64,000 bases of DNA from the NCBI RefSeq assembly GCF_964355755.1, contig NC_092671.1, positions 2,460,501 to 2,524,500 on the forward strand, given 5' to 3'. The notes beneath the pieces are model-generated. The model saw nothing but the letters and a program-made list of their open reading frames with translations. It did no database searches and was not told where the DNA came from. The stretch is from Antedon mediterranea. Taxonomy: Eukaryota > Echinodermata > Crinoidea > Comatulida > Antedonidae. Both the position numbers and the translations under genes were made by a program. Shown piece after piece: positions 10,014 to 64,000 of this stretch; the first letter of the stretch is position 1; every line of letters begins with the position of its first letter.

Positions 10014-11764
10014 CTCATGCTTCTTGTTGTGAAAGTCGATTCATAAAATGATCATCAGAAAACTACTTGATAATGTAGTGATGATACCATTAATCCTTAG
10101 TAAATATAATGACATACTAATCATATTAATGTACATCTGCGGCGGATCGATGGATTTAGTTGGTACTGTTGCAGTTGATTGAATTGGGGATTAATGACCT
10201 ATTTATACAGACGAGCGGTAAACGGTAATACAAATAGAAGCTTATGTTATTCATTATTACCATTGTGAGGCAATGCGGAGGGCACAGGCGGTTTCCTCTT
10301 CTCATATATAGATACGTATAGATTCTTTGTGGGGGGGGGGGGGGACAAGCTACGTGGTTTTCCGCTTACCGTTACCGCTCGTCTGTGTAAATTGGCCTTA
10401 ACTAACAATAATATTGTTATTTAAACTGCAATTTTGGTAATGAATACTCATCACTGTTTTGTATAATCACCGATTTATAATTGTATTTATTCAACTTCAA
10501 AGGGATTGTCAAAAGCGAACTTAATTACTGACTTTCCTTTAAAATTATAAATAAATTGAATTTAAGATGATTTTTTTTAAATTATGAATTTTTTAAATTA
10601 TAGATAAAGTAATAATAAACAAAGCAATTTTGCTTCAATGTAAGTTTACGGAAATTTAATTCGTCACAATTCAAATGAAAGCATAATCAAGCATAGTTAA
10701 ATTTACTCAGCAATTTACAATGCGTAATTAAAAACATGGACGACGTACGATAATAATAACTTCTTAAGTTGTTAATTATATTGCCCCTGGAAAAATTGTA
10801 ATTTAAAGCAAAAAAATAGCCAAGATGTTATATATAAGTGAAACCATTATTTGTGTTCATTTTTTTTTACGGAGGTGAATAACTTGATTGAGACTAAAAA
10901 ATGGCCTATTCAAAATATTATTTATGGATCTTCCTTTTACTTGTTATTTGCGGACAATGTATCTTTAACTGTTGTCGTAATGTAATAATTACCACCAATC
11001 ACAGAGTCATGGAACTATTACAATCCTTTCACCAGGAATGAGCAAAGTACTAAAATTAACTTTATTTTAAGTATAGGGGGCGATATATTGATATTTTTAA
11101 ATATCAGTTTATCGCCCTCTATCTTTCAAAAAAGTTTGTGGCAATTTAAAAGATCATAATAGCACCTCTCTGGGTAATTTAGGCTGCGCTCTTTGTTTGG
11201 TTTAGGTATTTTTATTTTATTATATTATATATTATTATATTCAGCTCAGTTATTATGCTTTATAAATATAATAAACAAAGTTTGTGTAGGAAGGAGGGAT
11301 TAGAATCCGACGTTTCATTTTTTGACGATGCTAGCGCTTCATACATGAGCCTATATTATCAAAAAGATTATTATTCTTGATCATTTTTTAGCGATCGTCG
11401 CAAAATATGACCAGCGTAGCCGACTGCCTAGGCCAAAAAGAACTGGTTCTTTGCGTAGGCCTAGGTTTCCACAGACATAAGTGGTGACGTGCTGTTTGTA
11501 GACTAGAACATACATACAAACCCGGCATAATATAGCAAATTTAAATAGTAAGTATATAGGATAGCCTAGTTACCAAATGATTAGGCTAGGGCCTAGGCCT
11601 AGCTAGGCCTAGCCTACGACGTTTATAAGTTCCGGCCTACTTGACTTGGGGCCGACTTGACTTGGGGGCCGACTTGACTTTGGCCGAGACGGTTTAGGGC
11701 CGACTTGGATCGAAATCATATAATATAATAATACGGGTTATAAGAAGTGAAGAGTCAAGCTTTA
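10014..11764. other. Intergenic between the receptor and the glycosyltransferase
   Basis: AT-rich sequence with a run of about 14 G at 10331, several short inverted repeats (for example GGGGGCGATATATTGATA and TTTATCGCCCTC around 11077-11120) and, from 11395 on, many overlapping GGCCTAGG motifs. The divergent neighbours mean that promoters of both genes should lie in this interval. No promoter element could be confirmed. Confidence 0.4.
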
Positions 11765-19853: not shown

Positions 19854-21315
19854 TCAAGGCGATTTGATGGAAGTGTTATTGGCCTGACCAATCAGAACCT
19901 TTGTTACAAAACTGACAATAGCTGAGGCTGGCTGTTCCTTTTCATACTCGGCAAATAAATGACAAACGTTATCCGTTAAACTACCAGGTTTGCGACTGAC
20001 GAAGCCAAATATACGTGCATCAGCTTCTTTACTATTCTCGTCTCTAAGCCATCTGCAAGAGTAAAAATATAAAGAAAATTAAATTCATTATTATATTCAA
20101 CGATGTCAGACTGGGGCAAAATTGTATAACGTCTCTTGTCATTAAAATAACTGTTTTAATAATTTATGCCAAAAATGCGAGAATTTGTCTATTTACAATG
20201 AAACCCACCTTCTACTGCCTGAATCTGAGCCACAGAAAAGAACAGATTCTACCGGATAATGACGTCTAAAAAACAATCTGTTAAAGAAATTTAAGAAATA
20301 AAATATAAGTACTTTTAAATATATATCAATTCACAGGCATTGTAAACTGTAAACTGCCCAGTGATATACTGATATGATACTGATACAGAAATCTGTGAGA
20401 ATGATAAAAAGCTACCTCAAACAAGACTCGAACAAGATACCTTCTGCTTCATACATATATACTACTAATATAATAGGTTGTTAGATTAAATCAGAGCAAA
20501 GCAGAGCAGAATACAAATAGTCAAAGACGCTAGTTATAACTTTTACTGCCCGACAGACTTTTTCATGAGGAGTACCTCTCTCTGAATATAATGAATATAT
20601 ATATATATATATATATAATTTGTTTTTAAATTGTAAAAACTCACTTTCTATTATTATCTGTGACGGTAATTCCCTTTGACGATACTTTAAAATGTACGAT
20701 GACAGAGGGCGGTTTAGTTTGCAATTCCATTAATCGCTTTGATGCTTCTGACACCGCGCTTGATCCTGTCAATGACTCCATGTCAAATGAATGCAGATAT
20801 AAAACATTGCAAGCTGAAATTATAATATTATACAAATAATTATTATTATTAATAAATGAATAATGAATAAATGAATATAATGAATAAATAAATAAATGAA
20901 TAAATGAATAATGAATATAATGAATATAATGAATAAATGAATATAATGAATATAATGAATAATGAATATAATGAATATAATGAATAAATGAATATAATGA
21001 ATATAATGAATAATGAATATAATGAATAATGAATAATGAATAAATGAATAATAAATAATATAATAAAATCCATGCCATGTGACCCACAATCGTCTAATTA
21101 AATGACAGGAATTTTTTTAGGTGTTACATAAAATGGTTTATTTGACGGGTCTATTTTGATGAGATTTCGATCGGAGCATAAGTGAGGGGGTATGTGGTGT
21201 TATTCAGAATAATATCCTGTCTGTCTATAGAATCAACCTTACATACCTGCACCTTTGGCCAACAAGTTAGCACGTGAGTTAGCATCGTTTGTGGATCCTG
21301 CAACATTTGCTGGAT
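19854..21315 (-). CDS. TNS: Tensin exons for the C-terminal PTB domain (4 exons)
   Basis: Exons 21315-21247, 20813-20645, 20277-20209 and 20052-19854 encode the phosphotyrosine-binding domain that engages NPxY motifs of integrin beta tails. Hallmarks of tensin PTBs are visible: [72 protein letters not shown] and [10 protein letters not shown]. The phase pattern (1, 2, 2) is preserved and the stop TGA lies at 19856-19854. After the usual end of the domain there is a short tail, [16 protein letters not shown] microsatellite fills much of the intron between the first and second of these exons. Confidence 0.95.
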
Positions 21316-24300
21316 CTATTTAAAAGTAATTATATATTTATAAAATAATGCTATTCAAATAATTGTTAATATTAATTCATAAACTAATCACGTGTGAACA
21401 AATATGATTAGTAAAACTTAAAGAATATAATCCGACTTTGAATAGGCCAATGTAAATAAAGTAATAAAACAAGTAATAATAAAAGTTATTCAGTTCCAAA
21501 TAAATAAATAAATAAGAGAACACAAATAACTATTTATAAAAATAATAATTAAACAGTTAAATTTAACCAAAAACTGATTGTCTGACAATTTGACTAATTT
21601 TTGCTTTACGTTTTTTCAGGTACATAATTTGTCTAATATATCTTAAAGATGTATTGTCCCTTGAAACACAAAAATGAAGGTCAAATATTCTATATTTAAA
21701 TTGGCCATATCAAAGTAATATTAAAGTTATTCACTTTAAGTCGAAAATTCGAGCCAAAAACTACAAGTTTACGTAATTAACCGGTAAATTAATTTGATTA
21801 CATTTTGCTGGAAAATCGTCGCGAGCGAAAGTAAACAAAGATTTCAAACCATGAGTATGCATTATGCATGATGCTAATTAGGATTGTTTACAACTCGTCA
21901 CGGTTTGAGAAGGTGTTTTCACACAGATCGCAAGGAACTTTTATGATTATGCATACAGAGCAGCCAAACAAGCGCGTTGCATTATGAGATATGTTTTGAT
22001 CGAAAATTTTGACTGGAAGTCAAAGTTATTTTTTGAACAAAAAAATGTCTGTATTTCAGTTAAATTATTTTCTTTTCGACTAATTTTTAGTGAAAGTTAA
22101 TAACTATTATGATACTTCAAAACGACCCACTTTTTTTCGAAATATTAAAAAAAAAATTTTTGGGAATTAGTCAAAGGGACAATACATCTTTAAATACCAA
22201 TTAATTAATTATTTATTTATGGAAGTAAGTAAAAGTTTAATGCAGCAGATTGTATAGAGGTCAATCTGAGACGAAAAGGTCAATGGGACAACTATGACGG
22301 ATACTTGACATAAAATGTATTGAACATGTGATCCCTGAAGAGAAACACTAACATATGCTAAGAAAGATACACAGTACTTTTAACATGTCTGAAGATTCCA
22401 ACTAAGATTTCTAACCTTACTGTCTGCTTAGTTTTTAAAATTAAGTATCAATCAGTCCACTTAGAAAAACTAATAAGTAGAGAAATAAATGAACATGATG
22501 CTGTAGCTTGTTACTTAACAACCTGGCCTACAAACTCCAGAGTATAGGTTCAAATCCTGCACCAATACCAGCTGTCAATAGCTACTGTCCTAGGTTTAAA
22601 TCCCATGACTAAACTTGGGGGTTTTCACATTTTGGTCATTTAAGTTCTGTCTACACTAGTTTGATAAAAATGTGATGCGCCCAAATATGGTAGTGATATG
22701 ACATCATCATGGCCATATATGGGCACATCACAATTTTTTGTCACATAAAGTTTCTCTATACTATTAAACTTTATGTGTCAAAAAATGTGATGTGCCCATA
22801 TATGGTAGTGATAATATGCTTAAATACGGTAGTGATATGACATCATCATCATGTCTATATATGGGCACATCTCATGTTTTTGTCACATAGTTTGATAGTG
22901 TGGACAGAGCTTTAGACTAGAGAACTAATCATCTTACCTGATTCTGGCAAGACAAGTTTGCATGGTAATGCCAATTGCTTCATTATATGTTGGTAGACAA
23001 GCGCTGAAAGACTGCCAAATACGGGTTCATTCTGGCAACCTTTAAGTTTGACGCCTCGTGAGTTAGGTTCAATGAGGAAGTGCCGTACAAGTTCACATAC
23101 TGGATCACCAACTAACGAAAACAAATTTTCAAAATTAAAAAAGCATTCAAAGTGTTACAATAATCTAAAATAAAAAATTATTACCATATATGGTCAAGCA
23201 TAATCCCATGCTCGTGTAAAATCTACCCGCTTATTTGTCACCAAATTTTGTACCCAGATCCCATGGGACTATAATTGGTCATATACAGTAGTTATATATA
23301 TATTATTTCGTACATTCGTTGAACTTCAACTGAACTTAACTGACATTTAAATTAAACTTAAAATCGGTTTCACTATATTTGCGAAAAAATTAGTTTGTCG
23401 AAATTGTGTCACTCACCTTTCTTCTGCTGCGGAGCATTGGGAGGTGGTGTTGCAACTTTAACTGCTAAGCCAAAGGCACCAGGGAACGAGTTACTATCAC
23501 GTACCACAAACGTACCTGGCTGTTTGTCCTTCAACATGGCTATCGCTGTAATTAGAAAAGGTTATTAAGTTATTAGTGACGCAGTAGGTAAACGTTGTTA
23601 ATATGATAACGCATTAATCAGTAAGCCACTGTTTTTGGAAAATGATCATTATATGAAAATTAATTAATACAATCTGTCATCTAGGAAATTATATAAGCAT
23701 TTCTGTTTTCTGTTTCCTCTTAGTGATTCCAAATAAAAAGCTCTCACAGATTTGTTTTCTTTTCCATTTTTTTTTTATTATTTATTAATTAATCTACCTG
23801 ATTCTCTGTATCGCCAAATACTAGAATATAGTACTGTATCACAGGAAAATTTCATAATACAGTATCACATGTGTATCACATGTGATGCCTGTTATCATAC
23901 TCACCGTCATCTCTTGTAATGTTTGGTTTGTACCACCAAGATGACAAATCCTTTACAAATCGAACATTTTCAACTCCTGGTTCTAAATAAGGGAATTGAA
24001 ATATACAGAAATTAGTATCATTCTGTTTAAAATGGTAATATAAAATATAAGAAGATTTTCATTGCAAACGAAAAATATGTTCCCTTAGTAGAGGTGTCCC
24101 TTGAATAGGTGTTGACCAAACACATATATTGCCTCTCGTTAATTTCATGGGAAAGTGTCCACATAAAAGGGGATGGCCTTGTGTGTTACCCTTCGTTCAT
24201 TTCAAAGGAAAGTTTTTACAGAATAGGTATCCCAAAGGTTATTATATGTAAAATGTATGTTTTAATCATTTAATTGGATCTTGTGTAATAAAGTACTATG

Positions 24301-27300: not shown

Positions 27301-30300
27301 TCGTTTTAATTGACTACACAAATCAAGGAAAAACTTATATTACAATATTTGTCACTTTAAAATCTTGTTTAATAATATAACAAACCATATAATTAATACT
27401 GTAAACAAAACTGTCTATTTCAACGAAAATGACCCATTTTAGAAAATGTTGTTTTAAAATGATAAACTTTTATCATTTTAGCATTTTTACACTCAATTTC
27501 TCTAGTATTTTAAACAATTTCAACTAATCCACTCTCGTGAATATAATATTATTAACATACAATAAAGACTGCAAACTCGTTTGCATTCTGGCACCCTCAA
27601 GTATGTATGACTCTAGTGATTAAATCTCAAGTATTTCTCAAGTGCAATAAAGGAATGCGTAAACAATTAAAACTGCATATCAGCAATATGTATCAATTTG
27701 TAATAGCAAATTAATTGTACGTTAAAGCTTTGCTCTACAAGCAGATTAGTGAGATTAGGAGTTGCATTTGATTCAACTAAATCAGATTATTGGAATAATA
27801 GATTATAGAATAAAATACAAAACAGAAATGCCTTTGGATACATTCTGAGAAAACAACTTTCCACTTTCTAAAGAATTTTATGTATTAATTTAAGATTTAC
27901 AAACTAGCGTATTAAGTTGAATTTGGATCATTTTTAAATTGGTAATATGTGACATTTCCTAAAAAGTAAAAGACTGACTCAATCAATATGGAATATTTAT
28001 TTACATAATTTCGAAAACCATTCACATAGTTGCACATACAATTATTTTGAGTAGATTAACAGAATGTTTGGTTGTCGATAAAACATTTATCATTTAACAT
28101 TCCAATGTCAAGCACACTGCACCACACATACTCCTTGTCTATGTAATAATTATCATAAGGATCAATTGAATAGATTAGAAACAAATTGTGTCTCTTCACT
28201 TACCTTCCAGGTTGTTTTTGTAATTTTCCTCTATTATCATAAACTGTCCTGTAACCACTCATCTCGGCCTCTCCCTGAACACTTCTAGGCCGCTCACTTT
28301 CTGGCAACTTATCATGATGAGCATTCCTATGCGACGCTTTAGACTTCAACCTGTCACTGAATGTTGGGTAATAGTTCTTAGGAGGCATTTCAACAGAAGC
28401 GAACGGTGCTGTTGGAGAGACATCTTGAGAGCTAGCTGGTGAGATTTGTCCGTTGTTTGTAGTATTTAAACCTCCATTGTATAAAGTGTATTGAGGATAG
28501 GGTTTTGTGCATTCTACACCAAATGGCAAGGAATGAGGCATCTCGGTTACTTTAGTTTGTGGTGGTGAAGGCTCATCTACCAATAGATCTGCCATTGGTG
28601 AAGACTGATCCCTCATTGGTGAAGGCTGGTCTCTCATTGGTGGAGAATGATGCACCTGCACTTCAACTAGATGTTGATTGGTTGGAATTATTTTTCTGTC
28701 TGCTTCAACAAACGCCATATCCTTCATATTTCGTTCATTTCGATTCTCATCTTGTTTTGGATTACCGTCGGCAAACCGCACAACCTTCTCTTGTCCTGGG
28801 CTAATTTGCGGACTATTTGTTTGGTTGTTCGTTATCAAGTTTGTCGTTTCATAAAAATCATCAATATCAAAATGAACAGATTTTTGTTCAGGAGAATGTT
28901 GTTTTTGGACAGTAGGTGACATACGTGTGTGTAGTACTTGCTGCTGAGCTACAGGGTATGAACTTGGGCCATACATCTTAACAGGACTCATGTCTGGCTT
29001 TTGTTCAGTTATTTTTGGAGAATACTGTTTAGGAGTAAAATGTTGCGGTGTTGATTTCTGTATGTCTCTTTCTTGTATATATAGCTCTGGTCTATTTTGT
29101 TGAGGTGTGAACTGATGCGGTGAACTGTGTTGCTGATGATGAATTATATATTGGTTTGGCGTGGCTTGTTCTTGATGTTGCTTTACTGGAGAAATAAATG
29201 CAGAGTTCCCTTGTGGTGTATATTGCTGTGGAGTGTTATACTGTTGAGGAGTACTGTGTCGCAAAGTACCCTGTTGTGGAGAAACTTGTTGCGGTGTTCC
29301 AACTAATGGAGTTCCTTGTTGCGGTGTTCCAACTAATGGAGTTCCGTGTTGCGGTGTTCCAACTAATGGAGTTCCGTGTTGCGGTGTTCCAACTAATGGA
29401 GTTCCTTGTTGCTGTGTTCCAACTAATGGAGTTCCGTGTTGCAGTGTTCCAACTAATGGAGTTCCTTGTTGCGGTGTTCCAACTAACGGAGTTCCGTGTT
29501 GCGGTGTTCCAACTAATGGAGTTCCGTGTTGCGGTGTTCCAACTAATGGAGTTCCGTGTTGCGGTGATCCTGTGTACTGTGTTTGTTGTTGGGGTGTTCC
29601 TCCTTGTGGGGGTGTTCCCATGTACGATGTTCCGTGTTGTGGTATTCTTATATGCAACGAGCTGTGGTTCGGTGTACCTTGATCCGTTGTACCATGTGGT
29701 AGGGTTGAACTGTGTTGTTCCGGTGCTGGAGATTGTGTTGTCCTTTGTAGAACTGTTGTCTGTGTTGTTGTAATATGTTGCGGCGTCACTTGTTTCTGTG
29801 TTCCGTGTTGTGGATAAGAAGGTGTTCTCTGTTGCTGACTATAATTTTGTGGTGAGTAGTGTTGGTGCTGATTATGATCTTTATCTGAAAATAGAAAAAA
29901 TATGAATGAAAATTAACTTTAAAAATAAAAATTTTTTCGTATTTCTTGAACAACCTTATACAAATACTGCCCTCTATAGGTTCAAGGTGATAAACTTATT
30001 AGGTTATATGCATTATCATGCATATAACCTCTTGATTCTGTCAAAATCTTTATTTATTTATTTATTCTTTCCTTAGCAGTATTTTGTCCGTGAATTATCT
30101 TGATATCAGTTTCATCTATCTAAGTCAATTTTTCAGAGTATATTCCTTATGGCCAGGAATCGATGTGGTTATATTTTCACGATGCGTAATCAAAAATTAC
30201 GCGGTCTACGCGCGATTTTACGAAATCACGTTTGTAATCATATCTTCACAAGCATGAATCACAATTAAACAAAATTTGGTACTCATAAATTTCAGGTCAT

Positions 30301-36300: not shown

Positions 36301-39300
36301 TAGCCATTCGTGGCACTTGATAACGGTCCTCCTCCTCATTAAATAGGCAACCATTTGTTATGTCTGGATAATTTGAACCTATATTTTTTAATGCGTGTTC
36401 CCAAATGGCAAGTTCGTTTTTAGGCGTGCTTGTCCGAGGAACACTTTCTTCCTGTGGTTGACTATAGTGAGGATCCTCCTCATCTAATCTACTCAGAGAT
36501 TGAGTTAGATCCACTCCATGCGTTGTTAACTTTCTATCATGCAAAAGGTTAGGTGTTGATTGAAATTGCGTTCCTGCGATTTGTCCAGTTGAGTTATAAC
36601 GCTGCGGGATTCGAAGATCTTTCATGCTTCCGGACTCATGCTGGAAAGGATGGGAGGGTCTTTTCGGGAAAGCTAATCGGATGGGTTTGCTTGGTCCCAT
36701 GTTTGTATCACTTCTTGAAAATTGAGATTGATGGGAAATTGGCCTGAATGTCGTCTGCGGAATTTGTGATAGTCCCGGTGACGGTTTGTAATACCGATTT
36801 CCCCGTAAATCTGGTTGTGATTGATATTTTGAATTCAGAGCAACATTCTCATTGGATGAGGCAATACCGTTGCTTACACTAGGAGCAACATTCTCATTGG
36901 ATGAAGCAACTCCTTTGCTTACATTTCTCAGACTTCCAATTCGATTCATTACCCAATTATAATCTGGGGCTGGATTATCAGGGGCCGGATTATCTGGGGC
37001 TGGATTATCTGGGGCTGGATTATCTGGGGCTGGATTATCTGGTTTGGGTTCTACTTTCGCATCATCTGTAGGGGTGTATTTTACGACGTCAGACCCAGGC
37101 TGAATCTCACCGTTTTGAACTAGTCTATCATACTCCCCTAACGGATAATATTTTAAAGTTGTTTTAACTTTGTGCTCTGTTGAGCGTACAACTACGCCCT
37201 CTTTATCGGCACCTGGTACGGAACGTATTAACTGTTCGTTTAGTGAATTATATGTAGGTTGAGGATGGATTAGTTGTTGGTTAGATGGGTTATATGATGC
37301 ATGCGTAGCAACAAGCGAGGTGTTAGTGTTGGGAAGAGAGGTATATGAAGAAGTTATATCAGATGATGCGGTCTGTGAAGAAGTCAAATCAAGATGCAAA
37401 TCATTAGCATGCAAAGACCTGCAATATACAACACAAATAAGAAGAAATTATAATGAAATTATAAATTAATATTTATAAAAATAAGTTATCAATATATTGC
37501 ATTTGAAAGATATAATAATAAAAATCAAATAAAAATTGTAAACAACATTGATGGTGATGTTGGTAAATATAAATCATTTGTATATAAATAAAAATAATCC
37601 TACAGGGATATTTTTTATTTACTTATTAAAAAGAATATGTAATAAATAAATGTATTCATTTAATAATCTATTTAAGATAACAATACAATTTACAGTGCAA
37701 TAAAATAAAAATTTATTTGTAGAAATTGACCAAATTCACAAACAAGCAGACAAACTTTGAACAGAAAAATCACAGAGAAAGAAAAAATATATCAACAAAT
37801 TTGGATTCTGAAAATGTAAAGTACATTTTAAAAAACTGTTAAAATTACCAAACCAGACAAGAAAATTTAATAATATATTATTAATTAAAATATACAACTT
37901 GCTAAATGTGCAAAAAATGTTGAAAAACATAACAAATTTGGACAATATTTTAAATATATAACAGAACAGAAAAACAAATAATAACGTAAAGGACAAATTT
38001 CCATATAAAGAAAAATGCACAAATTTCCACGACATAAACAAGCATGCATACACTTCAAATACAGTAAATATATACATATTCATATTAGAATGACCAAATA
38101 TGGTAAACATGCTACTGAACTGTTATGAATATTCGTTACTCGGTTACCTGACTACACATAGCGTATCTAGAAGCGCCTCCAAGCTGTTTATAATTGGAGC
38201 AAAATATTTTTATTCAGAAAATGTTGGTTTTTTTTAAATTAATACTGATTCACAATATGCACTATTTGTTTAATGAATTAAATGATATTAATTGTTCTAT
38301 TAAAACAAAAAACACATTAACAACACAAATATTAGGGGGGAGGTGGTAAGATGGTTAAGGAAAGGTACAAAACACTAGGGATTCTCAAACAAGAACTTGT
38401 TTTGAAGAAAGAAAGTTTATAGAAAAAAATATACATATATATATAATTGCAGTAAGTAGAAATAAATTAATTTACATAATTAATACTATATGATTAAATT
38501 AAATGTATGTATCATGAAATTTAAAATGATAAAGTGAATAAAAATCTGACATAACTATTACTATTAATTATTATTATTGAATGAAGTTAATAAATATAAC
38601 AAATTATTTATTATGATTTAGTTGATATCATAAATTACTTTTTAAAAATATATAGTAAGGAAAGCTTTAGAAATTTGTACTATGAAATTGTATTTGCAAT
38701 AAGAAAATTTGATGTTCTCAATTAAAAATTAACGTTCTTTGAAACTATAATGAAATTAGAAAAGAAAATGTAATATATAATAAGGACAAAATTAAATATT
38801 ATTAAACACTTACTTTTCAATCTGATGCATTCGTTTCTCGTTTACAGGGTTTGAATAGACTCTTTCTTTCCTTGGACTTCTTGGAGGCCTAGACACAATG
38901 TTGGGATCTACCACGTAAGAGTGCTCCGATTCCGGTCTGCTCGTTGGTTGACTTTCATATATAAACGATCCTGACATACTACCGTTAGGAAGACCACGCT
39001 GAGGCGGTGAATGGGCTTCTGGTGGCGGTACATACTGTTGGTAACGGTTTGGTGTTGGTTGGTATTGTTGTCGAGTAACATGACTCGCGATAATCGGATC
39101 ACTTATACGTGGCAAGTTTTTCACACGTGGGTCTGGCGTGTCTTTGTGAATATCAGTGGATCTATGTTTCATATATGTATCTGTTGATTTTACGCTACTG
39201 GGACTAAGCAGAGGTGGTGTGTATCGTGAGCCTATTTCATTGACCCGGTTATAAGAATCTGACCTCGGTGAAAGACTCTGAAGAGAGGGCGTTGAATGTT

Positions 39301-42300
39301 GATGTCCTGAATGTTTGTTACTCATCATGGTATCAATATATAATGGCTGTGATGTCGAGCCTTGCGATAGTCTTTCACGGTCACGCTTCTGTTTCAGTTT
39401 CAGCTGCTGTTTCTGAAGCCACGTTAAACCATCTGTTGATCCTTCGCTAGAGGTCTCACTAGGAGTTGGAGAAACTGGGTTCACTGTCGGTCGAAGATCG
39501 TTCAAAGGACTTGGGTTCGGTGTTTGTCGGCGCTCAGTTATAGGAGAGCTTGGATTCGCTGGAGATGTTGGCCCAGTGTGAACATATTTAATAATCTCCT
39601 TCTGTGCTCTGATTGGTGATGAAGGAGAATTTACCCTTGGGTATGAGTTTATTCTGGTAGGTGAGCTGGGCATAGAACCTTGCTTCTGTTTTTCTTGTAT
39701 GGGGCTAAAATTTGCTGAAACATTAGAATCAACAGTAGTATTTGGTAACGGTGAACTTGAGCGGTAATGTCTTTTATCATCTTGTCCATGATTCGCTAAT
39801 CGTTCATTAGCATTATATCGCAAAGGACTATGGGTACCAGGATTTGCACTATACGATGTTGATTGGACATCTGCTTGAATTTTTTCATCCACAGGTCCGT
39901 TTGTCATACCCTGGCCATAGGTCAAAAGCTGACCATTTGGCATGACCTGTCCATTTGGTATGGGTTGGATATGTGTATGTCCATTAACCATTGGTGACAC
40001 TTGTGATGGTTCGGTATTGTACATATGGCTTGTGTGATGATTTGAATTGTTCCGCATCACTGGCTCGCCATATAACAGATTATGCACTTGGCCAGCAGAT
40101 GTATGTGTGGGATTCTTATTCCCTTGTTTGTCTTTATCATGAATCTCGGCATAAGGGTTTTCTAGTTCGGTTGAAGATCGTGAGTAACCGCTGTCTCGTG
40201 AGGGCGACGTTGGTGATATGTGTGGAGCCGCACGTTGTACGGAGGTTGGCTTGGCTGCCTCTGCCTTCTGAGTTTGCGATATTTTCTTCTGAACACTAAC
40301 AAAGTTACTGGCATCAGGCGTCTGTAAAAATACAATTTTGAATTTGAAATATTCTAAACATGTCTTAAAAAGGTAAACATTAATTAAATAGGCCTTGATT
40401 TCTTCCGCTGGGCTTGTAAATTTGTCATGTGCCATTTTGCTATCATGGGAGTGGTTTACTAGAAAGTGTATTTTGGAAATAATACTGTACTAGTACTGTA
40501 CTAGTAATAGTGCTAGTACTGTGCTAGTAGTACTTGGCTAGTACTGGGCTAGTAGTACTTGGCTAGTACTGTGCTAGTAGTACTTGGCTAGTACTGTGCT
40601 AGTAGTACTTGGCTAGTACTGTGCTAGTACTCTGCTTAATACCAAGAAGCAGCAGCTTACCTCATTAGCATCAATTCCAATAAGAAGATCGTCAAAACCT
40701 TTCAACAATTCATCTAACTCTTCACGTTCTTTGTACGTTGGTCCGACGACCGTCACTGAATCAAAAGGCATATTCTTGATAGCTGCTACTGGTAACTTTG
40801 TTTGAGGGCTCTCACTTCTTGGTCGCACACCATTTGGTATCGGGCCGTTCATTTGGATAGGGCCGTTCATTAATGGTGTAGAGGCACTGTTGTTTACATG
40901 TTCGATTTTTGGTGCGTTGCTTTTGCGGACTTGAGCATACAAGCTGCCATCAGGGGCTGATAGGTGCGGTATGCTATTTACGTCTTGGCTATTCATATTG
41001 GAATCAACCAAGTCTGTGTGAAAAAATATGTCACATGTAAAAAAATTTTAGTAATATGAGCAAATATTCCACTCCTTGTAACTTTCACAAGTAACCTGCA
41101 TAAAAGGTATTTGCACACACGAATTGGATAAAGCGACTAGCTCAAAGCATTGTACAAATGACCCTAAACAAATTTATATATATTTTTTATTTGACATTAG
41201 ATTTTAATAGCAAATTTAAATTTTACTTTACACAGCATTTGTGAAATTACTACAGTATTTATAAAAGACCAGACTCTTACCATCTTCACCTTCTATCATG
41301 GAATCAAAATGTTCATAAGAATCCCAGCGTATGAGAGGATCATTGGAGTTTTCAAGTGGAAAGGCACTTCCGCGGACATAGTCACTATTGTGAATCTTGT
41401 CAGGCGTAGCTGAGAATATGAACTCTACTTTGGTAAATGATGGAAAGCGTGGATCTGAAAAATGAGCAGAGAAAAGCCAACATGAAATTTTTTACAAAAT
41501 CCAATAACATTTCCAAAAATGAGATAAAGTAAACTTTAGAACCAATCTTGATGTTTGTTAAGCTCTGTCTACACTTTAAACTTTATGTGACAAAAAAATG
41601 TGATATGCCCATATATGAACATGATGATGTCATATCACTACCATATTTAAACATATCACTACCATATTTGGGCACATCACACTGTAGCTATGGCATATTT
41701 TATTATTTTTATTTTTCAAATATATATTTTTTGTTCCGTTCCACATGTATTAACTTTATTTGTGCATAGCACAATCCTTAATATTGTCAGCAGTCCCAAT
41801 TACATTGATATAATTCACTCAAACCTCCAACTACTGTGTCATGATAATTCTCTCTGACAGTGGAGTTATTTTAATGGAGTCTGTGGGCTTAAAATGACTT
41901 AGTGTCTTTGTACAAAATTACCAACTGCAATTTAATATTGTTCCATAAACCAAGTGATTAAAATATCCAAGAAATACTATTAACGGATAAACTAAACGAG
42001 CCATACCTGTACACGCATCATCCAAGTCGGATTTTTGGAAAACTAGACGATATTCCATGATGGCTGTTGTGTGGAACTGCACGCGGAATATCACGTCTCG
42101 TGTTGTAGACCGGAATTTTTTGTGGTAGCATTTCACCTAGGAAAATAATAATTCTTCTAAATCAACATACTTTTTAATTACATTTTATATGAGATATTTA
42201 TCAATATTGATAATGTTAATTAATATGATTATCAATATTTACAATCATTATATATTTCAGTAGGCCTAAAGTTTTATTAATCATTTGATAATCTCTCATA

Positions 42301-45300: not shown

Positions 45301-48300
45301 TTATTGTGAAGGTTACCATAAAACATTCATGATAACATAAAATATACACGCATACAGATATATTCGGGATCAAACATGTTGCCATCCATTAAAGGCTTAG
45401 AGAACGAAAAGTTAAGGTATTGTTTATGTCATTTAACATTCAACATTAATGCACTTGGAATTATCTGACCACACGTTTATTTCACACTCATGCTCTAAAC
45501 TTATTTCTGTTAAACTACATAATGTGTAGGAGTGTTTATTGCACTCAGAAAGGAGAATAAGTTAAGTTTGGACTAATTCTATTGAGTTAAAGTGAGTTAA
45601 ATCAATAGTTATAAATTTACAGGCATAGAACAATTAATTAATCAATTAATTTATAAACAATAAATGTGAAAATTAATGTGAGGATCAGAAAAAGCCATCC
45701 TCAACCAAGATTCAAATTCGGGACATTCTGCTTGATATGCAGATGTCCTAAATCACTGGGGCTTTCATGATATTGTTCAAATTCGATTGGATAGTAAGCC
45801 CACAGTATCTATTCTTTACAATGACAATATCATCCTTTCACCACATGTCAAGTGACTATGCGATATTAAGTTCCACAATGATTCTACACTTGATAGACGT
45901 GTAGTGTGCATTGTGAAAATAAAAGTTTGCTATTAATAATAAACCTTATACAGAACAAATAACAATATAGTCCTACTTTTTGTGCGTAATTCATTCTGTC
46001 TATTCTATCTACTGGTACTCAAAAGACAACATACTTTCATGTTTTTAGTCATGTACCAGAGGGCCAAGAGATCAACATTGAAATACATAAATATTCTTTC
46101 TAGACTCCCTGTGTATAAATGGCACCATAAAAGAGGAATGTCATCACTCTATAATGTTTCACGAGCCATTAAACTTGTCCTTAGAAGCAACTAATATATT
46201 GTGTTGAGCATGTCTATCAGAAAGGAAATGTTTTACTGCATGGAAAATAATCAAAACTTTTAGTCGTTTGTCACCAATTTTGTTTGCATCATTGTCTAGC
46301 CCTTCACAGTACCACATGTTCATAGTCTATGAACTAATATGGTCACCTAATGTTATTACGTAACATTGATATGTGATTGATGGGCCCTATGTACTTGGTA
46401 ACCTCATAATTGGGCATTTAGACTGAATTTTCCTATTCCGAGTAATTTCCGAGAGTTTATATAAAGATATATTCTACCAGTTAAATCATAATTTTCAATA
46501 GCAAATTTACTAGTGTTATATTGCAATGCAATTTGAAATAAATAAATGTATACTTACATATAATGCGTTCTGTTATGTAATCCACATCCAAGTCTAACGA
46601 CTCCATTATGTAACTTTCCACCCCTCTGTAAAACAATCAAAGTTAATTGTTTTAAACTTCATAAATAATGTATCCTCACCCTTTCCAAAATATTGGAGTA
46701 ACTGTTGATGTTTTCATTTTATATTGTATCACTGTGTAAACATTGATATTTATTTTATATTAGCATCATTTATTTGTACTAGGGCTCAGTACTGGGTTCT
46801 CCAAAGTCAATGTTGAAGTGTGAATTGAGGTCAATGGCACTTGCCATCATTTACCTAGACAGATCTCACAGAAAATAAATACGTCAGTTGTAGGTATGAC
46901 ATCAAAATAGATAATGCCTTATAAGGCAATGAATAAGTTTAAGAATTTAGCATAATGTTAATCATTTTGTACATACTTTTACTTTTAGTTTCAGAAAACT
47001 TTCTATGAAAACTGAATTGTATTTTAATTGTCAAAATAGTTGTATAACAATAAAAAAAAAAAAAACTAATCAAAGCTGTTTAATCTTTTGAAATTGTTTG
47101 GACAGTTTTAAAACACAAATACAGAAAAACAAAAATAATATACTGAATAGAGTAACAAATGTAAGATGTTTTACATTTTAAATATACATGATAAATAAAC
47201 ATTTTTTTACTTCAGCAACAAATCTTTTCCTAAAAGAAATGAATAAGTTTGAGAATGTGCATATGTAAATCATTTTGTAAATTTTCTAATTTTCTAATCA
47301 TTCCATAATTTTGTATCAATAAAAGAAATTAAACACAGTAGTCTACTAAATCTTAAAATATTTCAAAACTATATGGTAGTATTAAAACTCTCAAAACTTT
47401 ATAGGCCTATACCACTACCAGTATAAAATAATTATTTTCAAGTCATTTCACATTCTGAAAAGAATATTAAAATTGATTTTGCAGGCCTGACAGTTGGAAG
47501 TTTCTGTGTATGTAAATGATATAAAAAGTGTCAAGTTCTAACTAAGGGGGAAACAGAAATATTGAATTCCTGAAATGCCATTCATCATGTTATTGCCTCA
47601 ACATATGTTGTATAGCCCATGCCTACAATAATGCGATAACAATAACAAATGTGCAGGAAAAAAAAGAGGATAGAGTTACCAGACCAGACTTTAATGCTAC
47701 ATGTTAATGATTTATAGAGAAAATGTAACAAAATGGTTCGATCGTGAGAGTTTATCTGTCTGACCTCAAGAGGGCCGATGACCAGTTAATGTACCATTTT
47801 GGGAGATAAAGTTTTATCTATGAGTGGGGCTATTGGTACTCATCTATCTTACCTGAGAAGGGTTATTGGTACTCAACTATCTTTGGGAGGGGTGATCGTA
47901 CTCTACTATCTCAGCTGGGAGATGTAATCTGTCCTCTACAATGTTATACAGGAGGGTGATTGTACTCTACAATGTATCTTTATGGGAGGGGTGATCGGTA
48001 CTGTACTATCCTATACAGGAAGGGTCGTATTCTATACTGTATCTTACCTGGGAGGGGTGATAGGTACTCTAGTATCTTACCTGGGAGGGGTGATAGGTTG
48101 ATATGTACTCTAGTATCTTACCTGGGAGGGGTGATAGGTTGATATGTACTCTAGTATCTTACCTGGGAGGGGTGATAGGTTGATATGTACTCTAGTATCT
48201 TACCTGGGAGAGGTGATAGGTTGATATGTACTCTAGTATCTTACCTGGGAGGGGTGATAGGTTGATATGTACTCTAGTATCTTACCTGGGAGAGGTGATA

Positions 48301-50818
48301 GGTTGATATGTACTCTAGTATCTTACCTGGGAGGGGTGATAGGTTGATATGTACTCTAGTATCTTACCTGGGAGGGGTGATAGGTTGATAGGTACTCTAG
48401 TATCTTACCTGGGAGGGGTGATAGGTTGATATGTACTCTAGTATCTTACCTGGGAGGGGTGATAGGTTGATATGTACTCTAGTATCTTACCTGGGAGGGG
48501 TGATAGGTTGATATGTACTCTAGTATCTTACCTGGGAGAGGTGATAGGTTGATATGTACTCTAGTATCTTACCTGGGAGGGGTGATAGGTACTCTAGTAT
48601 CTTACCTGGGAGGGGTGATAGGTTGATATGTACTCTAGTATCTTACCTGGGAGGGGTGATAGGTTGATATGTACTCTAGTATCTTACCTGGGAGGGGTGA
48701 TGGTTGATATGTACTCTAGTATCTTACCTGGGAGGGGTGATAGGTGGTACTGTTTCTGTCTGTACAGACATTGAATTTCTTTTAGGCCCACTTCCTTGCT
48801 TTTGCTAAAAGAATAAAATTAATAAAAACTGTAATAATTTATTTTTATGTGAACAATAATAATTTATATGTATTTTTGTCAATAATTATGTAAATCAAAT
48901 GAAAAGAAAAAACAAGAATTGGCAAAAAATCATCTCTACATTGTGACATTGTTTGTTTGTCAAATAACACGTACCAAATATGCATGCCTACGCTATTAAA
49001 AAGCCATATAATTTACTGAACTTCAAAGTTTAATATGTTTAAATTTACAATCCATAAACATGTGTTTATCATCAAATAAGAGCGTTGGTAATTTTACAGG
49101 TGTTAAGTTGATGCGTAACAGAGTGAGTTCATTCAATTTTGATGGCTTAATCAGTTAATTATTTGCACTTAATTAATGTAATTAATACTATGTTTGCAGT
49201 CAACCTTGACTAAAAGCAGGCCACAGAGCTAAGATCCTGTCAAGTGCATTAACACGTTTGTAAAGCAACTACTGTAGGCGTAAACTGCATTATAGTGAAA
49301 CCTCTATTAAGGGGACAATTTCAGGACCAAAAAAAGTGTCCTTTAATATAGGGACGTCTTCTGAATATGGGTTGGTCGTAGTGGTAACACCTCACTGGAA
49401 AGTGTCTCATTATTAGGGGTTTCTTATGAATATGGCTGTAGTGTTATAGTATAGTTATATATTGTAATAATAAGCATAATGGCCACTGCTCGTTACTTTC
49501 ACAGGGAAGTATCACCTGAATAGAGGAGTCAAAAAATAGGTTCTATTGTATATGTTGTTTTTTTCTTGTTTAGTAGGCCTACCGTGTAGAACAAAGATAT
49601 GTACAAAGTACTGTAGCATTTATCTATTCTGAACCTTTATATTTACAAAACCTGACATTTACGAATGCCGTATAAACTGAGTAGTACGTAAAAACAAGGC
49701 AATCTAACAACAGGACACTGAGCTTGCAAAATAGGAACTTGTAACTGTCATTTGATCTTATGTCTGGCTGCGACAAATTCAGTGTATCCTATATACATAA
49801 ACTCTGCAGCACGCAGTGTCTGAACTGATCATGTCGCAGCCACATATAAACCCCTTTGATCTTCGGAGCTCAGCATTCTGTTAGCAACTGTACGAATAAT
49901 ATTCATTGAATTAAGGTCTCACTTGAGGATGTTCCATACAAGGGTCACCATTATTGTTATACGAAGTTCATGCTAACAAAAAGTACTACAGCATCTATTG
50001 TACGTAGGAATTGATACAGAAGTGTTTGTCTTTCCTTCAGTACTACAGAAGTACAATGATATTTATAAAATTCAAGATTTCTGATAAGAGGAATAGGAAT
50101 ACTAACTGAAATATATCTGAAATTATATCTAGAATAATGGTTGGAGACTACCAAAACAAGTATGTATGTAAAAGCTACCAAAAATCAAACATTGATGCTT
50201 AAAATCATCTTGATTTTAGAATAGATTTATATAATTCCAATCTAAAATCATCAATGTCTGCGTAATTTTATCCTTCCTAATTCATTATTCTTTTTAATTA
50301 TACAAAAGCAAATTCGTATCTTCAATAGTCTACAACAAACCAAAGCAATATTTAAAAAAAAAAGGAAAAGCAATTTATTATGTAATTGAAGAAAGTAAAA
50401 TGAATAAATAAATACACGAAGAGAATTCATACCATGTGATTGATTATCAATATTTATGTAGCTCAATTATAAATTTCTTGTGAACCAGGTTTAGTAGGTG
50501 CACAATATTCATTACATATTCTTTTTAATGATGTTTTCCATTGTTTTTAAGTTTATTATTATTATTATTTTTTATTCAGGCAAAAGATACATTTTACAAA
50601 ATATAATACAAATCAACAAATTAAACAAACATGACGCAAAGAAAAAAGCAGCCTAATCCACTGTCACCAATTTTAGACTGAAATTATAAAACAGGCCACC
50701 AGAAGTAGAACAATTAGAAAAGACAACAAATGGAAATGTTCCAAGAGACAAAACAGGACGTTAATTTGAAACTTACTAATTTGACTGAACTGTACGTTGA
50801 AGGATCTCCTGATCTCGG
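19854..50818 (-). CDS. TNS: Tensin (focal-adhesion scaffold), 25 placed exons
   Basis: Tensins tie integrin beta tails to actin at focal adhesions and bind phosphotyrosine proteins through SH2. Coding exons, 5' to 3': 50818-50777, 48804-48728, 46625-46558, 44823-44675, 44399-44277, 43883-43819, 43698-43502, 43349-43289, 42738-42666, 42136-42007, 41454-41281, 41013-40661, 40321-38814, 37418-36157, 35846-35668, 35513-35312, 29884-28204, 26957-26845, 23982-23905, 23545-23417, 23111-22938, 21315-21247, 20813-20645, 20277-20209, 20052-19854 (TGA). Every junction is AG/GT and all phases agree, giving 7,344 coding bases (2,447 residues). Counted from the 50818 exon: PTEN-like phosphatase about 43-230, C2 about 245-386, Ser/Thr/Pro/Gln-rich linker about 390-2150, SH2 about 2155-2275, PTB about 2285-2430. 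Vertebrate tensins are about 1,400-1,750 residues, so the linker is enlarged. The start codon is not certain (candidates at 57594 and upstream). The phosphatase loop lacks the catalytic arginine. Confidence 0.93.
20590..20621. repeat. (AT)n microsatellite
   Basis: An uninterrupted AT run in the tensin intron between the exons ending at 20645 and starting at 20277. Confidence 0.8.
20850..21062. repeat. TGAATA/TGAATAA microsatellite in a tensin intron
   Basis: Interspersed TGAATAATGAA and TGAATATAATGAA words continue for about 200 bases. On the minus strand this gives long I/Y/F/S/H-rich open frames that are purely repeat-derived and are not part of the gene. One of them runs into the real PTB exon. 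Confidence 0.85.
21643..22194. mobile_element. MITE of about 550 bp with TIR TTAAAGATGTATTGTCCC
   Basis: The left terminus TTAAAGATGTATTGTCCCTT is answered at the right by AAGGGACAATACATCTTTAA. There is no transposase reading frame inside. It lies in the tensin intron between the PTB and SH2 exons. A partial relative with the same terminus lies at about 26520-26701. Confidence 0.75.
22641..22913. mobile_element. Nested or double MITE of the AAGCTCTGTCTACACT family
   Basis: Begins TAAGTTCTGTCTACACTAG and ends AGTTTGATAGTGTGGACAGAG. Inside, the motifs AAATATGGTAGTGATATGAC and ATATGGGCACATC occur twice or more, together with a second pair of internal ends near 22739-22775, as if one copy inserted into another. 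It ends only about 25 bases from the SH2 exon donor at 22937. Confidence 0.7.
22938..26957 (-). CDS. TNS: Tensin exons for the SH2 domain (4 exons)
   Basis: Exons 26957-26845, 23982-23905, 23545-23417 and 23111-22938. The first encodes the end of the Ser-rich linker ([15 protein letters not shown]). The next three give the SH2 fold: [19 protein letters not shown], then [19 protein letters not shown] with the phosphotyrosine-binding Arg of the FLVR-type strand (FVVR), [11 protein letters not shown], then [35 protein letters not shown] and [10 protein letters not shown]. All these match the tensin SH2, which also binds DLC1-type partners. No key residue is missing. Confidence 0.95.
25064..25365 (+). 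mobile_element. tRNA-derived SINE (second family)
   Basis: The head has an A box (GTGGCCGAGCGGTTTAGAC) and a B box (GGTTCGAGGCT). The body contains TTCTCGGATAAGGACTATAA, GTGTGCACTTTAAAGAACC and GAGACGAGTAGGGGGTTACC, and the same strings occur in reverse at 53740-53900. It lies in a tensin intron. Confidence 0.75.
26520..26701. repeat. Fragment related to the 21.6-22.2 kb MITE region
   Basis: Shares GGTTAAATTCAACCAAAAAT-like, TTTTTGCTTTA and GGGACAATACATCTTTAAG sequences with 21555-22194. It appears to be a truncated or internally deleted copy in a tensin intron. Confidence 0.6.
26958..28203 (-). other. Tensin intron without other features
   Basis: AT-rich intron between the large linker exon and the exon preceding SH2. 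No repeats or coding frames were recognised. Confidence 0.5.
28204..29884 (-). CDS. TNS: Large tensin exon encoding Gln/Pro/Thr-rich linker
   Basis: A single 1,681-nt exon with acceptor ttttcag at 29887-29885 and donor AAG|gtaag at 28204. It encodes about 560 residues of low-complexity, presumably disordered linker rich in Q, P, T, H and S, with many SP/TP dipeptides that could be proline-directed kinase sites. The N-terminal third contains nine copies of a decapeptide repeat (see 29287-29570). The C-terminal third contains tensin-like pieces such as [13 protein letters not shown]. No folded domain is visible. Vertebrate tensin linkers are similarly disordered but not alignable here. Confidence 0.9.
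29287..29570 (-). repeat. TNS: 30-bp coding minisatellite: decapeptide [10 protein letters not shown] x 9
   Basis: Nine 30-bp units inside the tensin coding exon give repeats of GTPLVGTPQ(H/Q). The units keep the frame and differ at a few sites (H/Q alternation, one TLQH, one TQQQ). Nucleotide near-identity including third positions indicates recent expansion by replication slippage or unequal exchange rather than old protein repeats. Confidence 0.95.
30000..31460. mobile_element. Candidate inserted element bounded by palindromic GGTTATATGCAT ends
   Basis: The left boundary is a hairpin, AGGTTATATGCA/TGCATATAACCT, at about 30001-30030. The right boundary repeats ATGCATATAACCTATAATT and is followed by the palindrome AATTCGTCATAGTGACGAATT near 31440-31460. 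In between, 30170-30610 is strikingly rich in CG and GCGC (for example GCGTAGCGCATATAACGC) compared with the AT-rich intron around it. A tRNA-like stretch occurs at 31055-31120 (TATGGCTCGGTGGTGTG, then GATCGAGTCTCACC). The whole sits inside a tensin intron. The type of element is not known to me. Confidence 0.45.
31470..33100 (-). other. Tensin intron, AT-rich, nothing else seen
   Basis: Part of the long intron between 35312 and 29884. There are no coding frames of note and no recognised repeats. Confidence 0.5.
33130..33245. repeat. Short tandem repeat CTTAATAGAGGTGTTCCAAT, about 34 bp x 3
   Basis: Three copies of a unit combining TTAATAGAGGTGTTCCAAT and AATAGGGGTATCCC. Similar single phrases (AATAGAGGTGT, TAATAGGGGT, AGTGTCC) recur near 24090, 25780, 49310 and 55610, pointing to a dispersed family. 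Confidence 0.7.
33340..33545 (+). mobile_element. Decayed LINE 3' end with TTATTA tail
   Basis: The plus strand ends GCGCCTTTGATCACTTACTG, GGAATTGGCGCGTTACAAAT and an ATT microsatellite, like CR1/L2-type 3' ends. Just upstream is a broken frame with [11 protein letters not shown]-like residues (CCTTGAAAACTCATCTTTTT). Only the last about 200 bases remain. Confidence 0.5.
33600..35290 (-). other. Tensin intron, upstream half
   Basis: AT-rich intron with no further feature I can support. A short plus-strand frame near 34628-34870 is F/H/L-rich and looks like chance. Confidence 0.4.
35312..41013 (-). CDS. TNS: Tensin linker exons between C2 and the Gln/Pro repeat exon (5 exons)
   Basis: Exons 41013-40661, 40321-38814, 37418-36157, 35846-35668 and 35513-35312. 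The linker is Ser/Thr/Pro/Asn-rich with many SP and TP sites and likely phosphotyrosine sites, such as [10 protein letters not shown] (vertebrate tensins carry a DGSLYAKV-like motif here) and ENPYAEI. The 1,508-nt and 1,262-nt exons are large but continuous. Pieces typical of tensins include [15 protein letters not shown] in the first exon, [14 protein letters not shown] in the second and [19 protein letters not shown] near the end. A likely single helix ([19 protein letters not shown]) resembles the conserved WLQ-type helix in tensin linkers. The 15-bp repeat at 36958-37047 encodes NPAPD x 5. Confidence 0.92.
36958..37047 (-). repeat. TNS: 15-bp coding repeat, DNPAP x 5
   Basis: Five near-identical copies of a 15-bp unit inside a tensin coding exon, flanked by PKP and YNWV. 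The frame is kept, so the repeat tract can vary in length without frameshift. Confidence 0.9.
37419..38813 (-). other. Tensin intron
   Basis: AT-rich intron between two linker exons, with no recognised repeat or coding segment. A minus-strand F/L-rich open frame (37736-38110) is compositionally like intron sequence and lacks splice context. Confidence 0.5.
40482..40636. repeat. 25-bp tandem repeat in a short tensin intron
   Basis: About five copies of TAGTACTGTGCTAGTAGTAC plus TTGGC. The array fills almost half of the 339-bp intron between 40661 and 40321 and ends about 25 bases from the donor of the exon ending at 40661. Confidence 0.85.
41281..43349 (-). CDS. TNS: Tensin exons for the C2 domain (4 exons)
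   Basis: Exons 43349-43289, 42738-42666, 42136-42007 and 41454-41281. Together they encode the PTEN-like C2 domain: [19 protein letters not shown], then [69 protein letters not shown], then [20 protein letters not shown], which ends the domain just as in vertebrate tensins. In PTEN-type proteins the C2 fold packs against the phosphatase domain and binds membrane lipids. Order and content are intact. Confidence 0.95.
41563..41692. mobile_element. MITE fragment, AAGCTCTGTCTACACT family
   Basis: Starts TTAAGCTCTGTCTACACT, continues with TTTATGTGACAAAAAAATGTG, ACATGATGATGTCATATCAC and ACCATATTTGGGCACATCAC, as in the 22.6-22.9 kb copy. The other terminus is missing or diverged. It lies in a tensin intron, about 110 bases upstream of an exon. 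Confidence 0.7.
43502..46625 (-). CDS. TNS: Tensin exons for the PTEN-like (pseudo)phosphatase domain (5 exons)
   Basis: Exons 46625-46558, 44823-44675, 44399-44277, 43883-43819 and 43698-43502. The fold reads clearly: [75 protein letters not shown], then the P-loop region [20 protein letters not shown] and [44 protein letters not shown]'s loop is HCKAGKGRTG. Here Cys is kept but the essential Arg is Pro, so catalysis is not expected. The Cys lies at the end of one exon and the Pro in the next, joined in phase 0 across a donor AAG|gttcgt and an acceptor tttag. Other tensins have lost or altered the same loop in different ways. Confidence 0.94.
44824..46557 (-). other. Tensin intron
   Basis: AT-rich intron. 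A plus-strand open frame at 45982-46194 has no recognisable content. Confidence 0.5.
47830..48740 (-). repeat. 41-bp minisatellite carrying copies of an exon end and its splice donor
   Basis: On the minus strand each unit contains CACCCCTCCCAGGTAAGAT followed by ACTAGAGTACATATCAACC. About 17 copies with a period of mostly 41 bp lie between 48036 and 48720. The right-most unit overlaps the real 3' end of the tensin exon 48804-48728 (same CCCAG|gtaagat). Toward low coordinates (47830-48035) the copies become degenerate, while those near the exon are almost identical. Four copies read TCTCCCAG instead of CCTCCCAG, and one unit near 48590 lacks TTGATATG. Confidence 0.95.
48728..50818 (-). CDS. 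TNS: N-terminal tensin exons upstream of the phosphatase domain (2 exons)
   Basis: Exon 50818-50777 (42 nt, [14 protein letters not shown]) and exon 48804-48728 (77 nt, [19 protein letters not shown] then PPITPPR). Both have good splice sites (tttgcag and TTA|gtaagt; cttttag and CAG|gtaaga). The frame runs straight into the 46625 exon. They encode a short basic, Ser/Thr-rich leader before the phosphatase domain. No C1 domain is seen, unlike one vertebrate tensin-2 isoform. No start codon lies in these exons apart from an internal Met (NSM), so they need at least one upstream first exon or begin at that Met. Confidence 0.75.
48805..50776 (-). other. Tensin intron with dispersed-repeat pieces
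   Basis: Contains a piece of the AATAGGGG/AGTGTCC dispersed family (49310-49550) and one copy of the TCTGGCTGCGACAAA repeat (49740-49880). No coding segment is supported. Confidence 0.5.
49740..49880. repeat. Dispersed repeat, copy 1 (TCTGGCTGCGACAAA family)
   Basis: Contains TTATGTCTGGCTGCGACAAA, a CTGATCATGTCGCAGCCACA stretch that is partly its inverse, and CCTTTGATCTTCGGAGCTCAGC. The same order occurs at 56840-56985. Inverted GGCTGCGACA/TGTCGCAGCC segments could form a stem. Confidence 0.75.
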
Positions 50819-63337: not shown

Positions 63338-64000
63338 CTGGCAAATTGAGGGGGTGGGGTTATACTCACACATGGGACTATACAGGGGGTGGGGTTATAC
63401 TCACACATGGGACTATACAGGGGGTGGGGTTATACTCACACATGGGACTATACAGGGGGTGGGGTTATACTCACACATGGGACTATACAGGGGGTGGGGT
63501 TATACTCACACATGGGACTATACAGGGGGTGGGGTTATACTCACACATGGGACTATACAGGGGGTGGGGTTATACTCACACATGGGACTATACAGGGGTG
63601 GGGTTATACTCACACATGGGACTATACAGGGGGTGGGGTTATACTCACACATGGGACTATACAGGGGGTGGGGTTATACTCACACATGGGACTATACAGG
63701 GGGTGGGGTTATACTCACACATGGGACTATACAGGGGGTGGGGTTATACTCACACATGGGACTATACAGGGGGTGGGGTTATACTCACACATGGGACTAT
63801 ACAGGGGGTGGGGTTATACTCACACATGGGACTATACAGGGGGTGGGGTTATACTCACACATGGGACTATACAGGGGGTGGGGTTATACTCACACATGGG
63901 ACTATACAGGGGGTGGGGTTATACTCACACATGGGACTATACAGGGGGTGGGGTTATACTCACACATGGGACTATACAGGGGGTGGGGTTATACTCACAC
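63338..64000. repeat. 35-bp minisatellite running off the right edge, about 19 copies
   Basis: Near-identical units of GGGGGTGGGGTTATACTCAC and ACATGGGACTATACA, with one 34-bp unit near 63592. The array is truncated by the window end, so its full size is unknown. The plus strand carries G5-T-G4 in each unit. The minus strand carries GTGTGAGTATAACC, with the donor-like GTGAGT. Confidence 0.95.

Follow-up and report, generated by a model that had tools for sequence, protein, structure and literature searches.

A tandem array of duplicated splice donors at a tensin exon, most likely a neutral minisatellite of the mirage kind, and its counterparts in the same genome

A minisatellite of splice donors in the human gene IFI6 (6-16, G1P3) was reportedly described by Turri et al. 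in 1995. In this gene, two downstream repeat units act as splice donors and give further mRNAs (PMC4526556), and the donor minisatellite is also cited in PMC2572611. Tandem repeats lying across exon–intron boundaries have been described in the globin genes of amphioxus, where they were termed mirages; earlier cases, including Adh3, are cited in the same paper, many of the copies retain AG/GT, and RT-PCR together with the Adh3 data suggest that regular splicing is undisturbed (PMC3087553). A further report adds PGBD5 to the mirages and names TnC (PMC3902484). Human repeats at exon–intron boundaries have been linked to new introns (PMC2812944), and intron gain or change has been attributed to tandem repeats at such boundaries (PMC4974935). 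Minisatellites are also known from introns of fish myostatin-2 (PMC3045353) and earthworm metallothionein (PMC12783039), the available text of which notes no duplicated splice junctions.

The array considered here lies in a tensin gene and resembles the amphioxus mirages (Adh3, the globins BflGb6 and BflGb9, troponin C and PGBD5) in being a boundary minisatellite beside the authentic splice site. Its units hold the end of the exon and the start of the intron (exactly in 13 of the 17 duplicates, slightly changed in the other 4), and the presumed authentic site stands at the edge of the cluster, with the duplicates in the intron. The units of the amphioxus Adh3 mirage measure 10–72 bp and BflGb6 has 6 and 3 units on two haplotypes, fewer than the tensin array; in amphioxus, 3' as well as 5' boundaries bear mirages, whereas the arrays of the present work were searched at donors. 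IFI6 shares with tensin the tandem donor-like units at an exon end, but its later units yield further mRNAs, while the second tensin unit would stop translation at once. The repeats linked to intron gain likewise involve tandem duplication touching splice signals; they concern new introns, whereas in tensin a pre-existing intron contains the array. The original prediction knew of no described case, a view that the amphioxus mirages and the human IFI6 donor repeats overturn. Tensin itself is not among the mirage genes named in the available text of PMC3087553 and PMC3902484, nor was it found in the boundary-repeat literature by searches on the phenomenon rather than on the gene name, and no further boundary-minisatellite cases were recognised in literature listings under other wordings. 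A search for COX1, which bears on the host's affinity, gave no match; if the host is not a cephalochordate, the array widens the range of mirages.

The array at the tensin donor

The window (the whole stretch of DNA that was analysed, 64,000 nucleotides) contains on its minus strand exons with profile matches to PTEN_C2, SH2 and PTB, which identify the gene as a tensin; 6 of the 9 tensin pieces submitted to the domain search gave no match at E 0.001. The exon that bears the array, 48804-48728, is presumed to belong to the same gene on the strength of its frame, its acceptor and a compatible next exon at 46625-46558. The parts of the gene are as follows.

48728..48804, minus strand: presumed tensin coding exon, 77 nt, ending in phase 2, with acceptor ttttattcttttag, an open frame and a fit to the next exon
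46558..46625, minus strand: presumed following exon of tensin, with which the phosphatase-like domain begins; it has an in-frame ATG, acceptor gattgttttacag and donor TATAT/GTAAGT (here and below, the slash marks the exon–intron junction)
41921..42136, minus strand: reading frame around the C2-domain exon (PF10409 PTEN_C2, 43.2 bits)
23412..23561, minus strand: reading frame around the SH2 exon (PF00017 SH2, 25.2 bits)
19857..20078, minus strand: reading frame around the PTB exon (PF08416 PTB, 34.4 bits)

The elements of the array itself are these.

48726..48727, minus strand: GT of the first, presumably real, donor CCCAG/GTAAGAT (predicted U1 pairing -11.3 kcal/mol)
48048..48745, minus strand: near-identical part of the array, with 18 CCCAG/GTAAGAT including the exon's own (TRF and unit list)
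47815..48047, minus strand: degenerate, probably older units of ~33 bp (wrap-around alignment; CAGGTAAG at 47855)
48747..48751, minus strand: exonic AGTAC that may mark the left end of the founding duplication
48711..48715, minus strand: intronic AGTAC that may mark its right end

On the minus strand the exon ends in ...CCTATCACCCCTCCCAG/GTAAGATACTAG, and exact copies of CCCAGGTAAGAT occur 18 times, from 48732 to 48052, i.e., the exon's own copy and 17 duplicates, in which the donor word CCCAG/GTAAGAT is repeated. TRF reports 17.0 copies of 41 bp at 48058-48745 (95% matches, score 1278). The 41-bp unit is composed of 18 exon bases and 23 of intron, and intact units have GTAAG at the 5' end and CAG at the 3' end. 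Among the 17 duplicates, 14 units are 41 bp long, one is 40 bp and two are 33 bp; the last 18 exon bases are exact in 13 and carry one mismatch in 3, and the first duplicate (the 40-bp unit, with one base deleted) keeps only the last 14 exon bases exact. The donor of exon 48804-48728, an exon assigned from the sequence, constitutes the first copy, and the others extend into the 2.1-kb intron. The 22-mer CCCAGGTAAGATACTAGAGTAC has 17 zero-mismatch occurrences in the 354-Mb assembly, all inside the array, and the locus is single copy in this one assembly.

Along its length the array shows a step rather than a smooth decay, the units being near-identical up to 48048 and degenerate beyond. The 233-bp degenerate stretch at 47815-48047 comprises ~7 units of 33-bp-like length (wrap-around alignment score 212; 30 shuffles gave 33 at best), one of which retains CAGGTAAG at 47855. 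This stretch and the two 33-bp units of the near-identical part point to an older unit of 33 bp, with the 41-bp form arising later. The original prediction thus described the anatomy well: the unit spans the exon–intron junction, 17 exact CCCAG/GTAAGAT duplicates carrying exon end and intron start (about 17 had been claimed), and the array starts at the presumed real donor, the first copy. The decay with distance that it noted takes the form of an abrupt transition at 48048.

Also as predicted, use of any later donor would bring an immediate in-frame stop: the exon ends in phase 2, and reading past its first donor gives AGG TAA (R-stop). A shorter tensin product might still arise despite this stop, from the in-frame ATG that closely precedes the phosphatase-like domain in the next exon. 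By predicted U1 pairing the array donor (-11.3 kcal/mol) is the joint strongest of 12 tensin donors (range -5.1 to -11.3), and the 17 identical strong donors downstream could leak. The decayed units show no sign of retention or purging of the duplicate donors, their donor bases (nine positions) matching in 75% of cases (n=69) vs 79% at the other positions (n=170), with few units behind both figures; the near-identical units have too few variable sites for this comparison.

Donor-word arrays elsewhere in the genome

The genome was surveyed for places with at least 3 copies of a donor word at a spacing of 23-53 bp. For CAGGTAAG there are at least 16 such places including tensin, among 192 of 225 matches taken in full and the first 100 of a separate search for the word; for CAGGTGAG the census is complete (31 of 31 matches, 6 places); for AAGGTAAG there are at least 9 places among the first 100 of 384 matches. 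In 13 of the 31 places examined, the first copy of the array, on the sense strand, is the donor of what is probably a coding exon, and the array starts there; by word, this is the case in 8 of 16 (CAGGTAAG), 3 of 6 (CAGGTGAG) and 2 of 9 (AAGGTAAG). The homology of the exon extends up to its last residues in DHX8 (4e-19), TIMELESS (1e-17), IMP4 (2e-9), an MPP2-like PDZ domain (1e-4) and SUGCT (6e-18), and the exon of L007 matches EGF domains. The exons of L009, L013, L016, L018, L020 and L024 were assigned by open frame, acceptor and, for some, adjacent exons; none of their peptides matches a Pfam family, nor does that of L016 match anything in the PDB. A FYVE-domain reading frame lies near L009 and an MFS_1 match just under the cut-off near L013; in L016 the exon donor is ATGG/GTAAGG and the repeats have CAG/GTAAGG. 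In the other 18 places no such exon was seen by eye within the 230-300 nt inspected ahead of the first copy, and some of them (L004, L017) adjoin reading frames on the opposite strand.

The donor arrays place from 4 to ~50 near-identical donors in a row after exons, those of several conserved genes included. L009 is the longest of the 13 (G000 C5:613000-618500, minus strand), with 51 copies of CAGGTAAG, mostly in a 31-bp unit, after a probable exon. In L015 (G000 C9:5046800-5049500, minus strand) the IMP4 exon is followed by a 27-bp donor array of ~34 copies; the exon ends in phase 2, and its later donors would lead to AGG TAA as in tensin. The first CAGGTAAG of this locus is the donor of another exon, and the IMP4 exon ends at the array. 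Phases and read-through outcomes vary between the arrays: at the MPP2-like PDZ exon (L027:1135-1209, G000 C2:40518900-40521100, minus strand) the sequence of the 36-bp donor array is open in frame for 212 nt. Two pairs of places in G000 have very similar flanks, namely L010 (C6:30479000-30482900) with L011 (C6:30502600-30505600) and L031 (C3:19696200-19698000) with L032 (C3:20755300-20757100), so that some donor-word arrays have been copied as blocks.

The other loci indicate the direction of growth. The exon piece within the repeat unit measures 29 nt in DHX8, 14 nt in IMP4 and 30 nt in the MPP2-like gene. Alignments to known proteins of these families cover the exon ends, so in these genes the copies in the intron derive from the exon. 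For tensin the same growth from exon to intron is probable by analogy with these three genes, and the outward duplication proposed in the original prediction is to this extent upheld. The position of the real donor at the head of the array may be put down to selection, given that a real donor further downstream would put intron sequence into the coding region.

Donors are not hit in marked excess. CAGGTAAG occurs 10,601 times genome-wide vs 6,247 for the reversed word, a rough control for composition, both counts including the arrays' own copies; if the excess is taken as real donors, ~41% of the copies are donors. Arrays at donors make up 8 of the 15 independent CAGGTAAG arrays (the pair L010/L011 being counted once) vs 41% expected (P 0.43), and the idea that donors attract arrays was rejected on this sample, in which only a large excess would be detectable. 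Triple-array matches number 225 for CAGGTAAG vs 215 for the reversed word, which has 4 arrays among the first 100 of its 215 matches, which end within C4, as against at least 7 for CAGGTAAG on C1-C4. Tandem duplication therefore seems to strike donors much as it does other copies of the donor word.

A second candidate, the locking of array starts to the junction, was also rejected. Among the first 8 donor arrays, 5 start at most 7 nt from the junction vs 1.6 expected (P 0.009, with a cut-off chosen post hoc), and the prediction, once fixed beforehand, gave 0 of 5 with the new words. When the overlap with the exon is expressed relative to unit length, the 13 arrays are consistent with a uniform distribution (KS P 0.91 if tensin is entered manually as 24 of 36; 0.77 at 18 of 41; 0.89 with tensin left out).

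Neutral expansion weighed against use of the later donors

The reading that we hold with high confidence is that the tensin array is a mirage, that is, an essentially neutral boundary minisatellite whose first donor is mostly used, and most likely nothing out of the ordinary in kind. A short segment straddling the exon–intron boundary (the last 18-24 exon bases and the first 12-23 intron bases) would have been duplicated in tandem, perhaps between the two AGTAC repeats, which lie 36 nt apart in exon and intron. Further copies would then have been added on the side of the intron by slippage or unequal exchange. The exon copy and the first donor would be held by selection on protein and mRNA, and the remaining copies would be free to expand, homogenise and decay. 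As the spliceosome would mostly take the first donor, the array would be removed with the intron, and it is presumably tolerated because this donor suffices.

The original prediction went further and proposed a donor decoy, a U1 landing strip or a switch for nonsense-mediated decay (NMD), in which use of downstream donors rises with copy number, leads to AGG TAA and leaves less full-length tensin. Each exact duplicate is indeed the same strong predicted donor, reading on past the first donor meets a stop immediately, and human IFI6 employs its downstream repeat units. Yet similar arrays recur at 13 of the 31 places, those of DHX8, IMP4 and TIMELESS among them, and their phases and read-through outcomes differ, which argues against a common switch. 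The decayed units, moreover, have lost their donor about as they have lost other bases (the 75% vs 79% given above), donors are not over-represented among the arrays (8 of 15 vs 41%), regular splicing is reported for amphioxus mirages that carry AG/GT signals, and the in-frame ATG in the next tensin exon could soften the effect of a stop. A function of this kind is unsupported rather than disproved, and we consider it quite improbable. Somewhat akin to it is a copy-number rheostat, in which a small share of the pre-mRNA uses the 17 downstream donors and tensin output falls as copies rise. This is unlikely; if true, individuals would differ in tensin dose by minisatellite length.

The units could also be imagined to act as a ratchet, GTAAG...CAG units being spliced out stepwise with regeneration of CAG/GTAAG, so that stray donor use is hidden. 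All intact units start with GT and end in CAG, and the tensin unit end, taken as an acceptor, is 86% pyrimidine with a score of 4.8 (92nd percentile of 3,141 AGs of the window); the TIMELESS unit scores 7.0 and exceeds 10 of 23 real acceptors hand-picked from this genome (25 chosen, 23 scored; median 7.9). The tensin score, however, lies below 22 of these 23, those of the DHX8, SLC16-like and L016 units are lower still (range over the units of the other arrays scored, -1.2 to 7.0), GT...AG units arise automatically wherever an exon ends in AG, and an intron made of one unit, at 17-47 bp, would be short. By predicted scores, then, the tensin units are good donors and mediocre acceptors, and stepwise splicing, possible in principle, is not favoured and is very doubtful here. 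That the array owes its size to assembly error, having been inflated or collapsed, is the least credible of these readings and highly improbable: near-identical repeats are prone to misassembly, but the copies show point and length variants in mixed order, degenerate units flank the near-identical ones, and arrays of the same kind stand at other loci.

The arrays as a class, and other repeats of the window

Taken alone, the tensin array is a curiosity; the arrays as a class are useful. What the census of one genome contributes is a little new: recurrence, no excess at donors, random placement at the junction and occurrence at exons of several conserved genes. Rows of near-identical donors, presumably borne without much harm, would amount to a natural experiment on how the spliceosome picks the first donor. 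A choice of the first of many is hard to reconcile with the simple rules of proximity or occupancy known from classic work on duplicated donors. With up to ~50 near-identical strong donors, the present arrays would gauge the choice among identical donors. A good test case for leakage is the MPP2-like exon, where splicing from any of the nearest few duplicates would insert repeats of 12 residues into the PDZ domain. The data also suggest that tandem duplications capture donors with about the same frequency as other copies of the word; such arrays would then continually supply cryptic donors and material from which introns can change.

The window contains 12 minisatellite arrays with a period of at least 15 and at least 3 copies (TRF rows, overlaps merged by hand), and this stretch, at least, is minisatellite-rich. 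In another tensin intron a 25-bp array (40490-40636, minus strand) starts ~30 nt into the intron, not across the junction, the donor upstream of it being AATGAG/GTAAGC. The long open frames of tensin, on the minus strand, contain a 30-bp tandem repeat at 29287-29570 and a 15-bp tandem repeat (PDNPA) at 36962-37042. A 35-bp array of 18.7 copies with 99% matches occupies 63349-64000 and reaches the end of the window. Outside the repeats, a long uninterrupted frame of a rhodopsin-family GPCR (7tm_1, 131.4 bits) lies at 8841-10040 on the minus strand.
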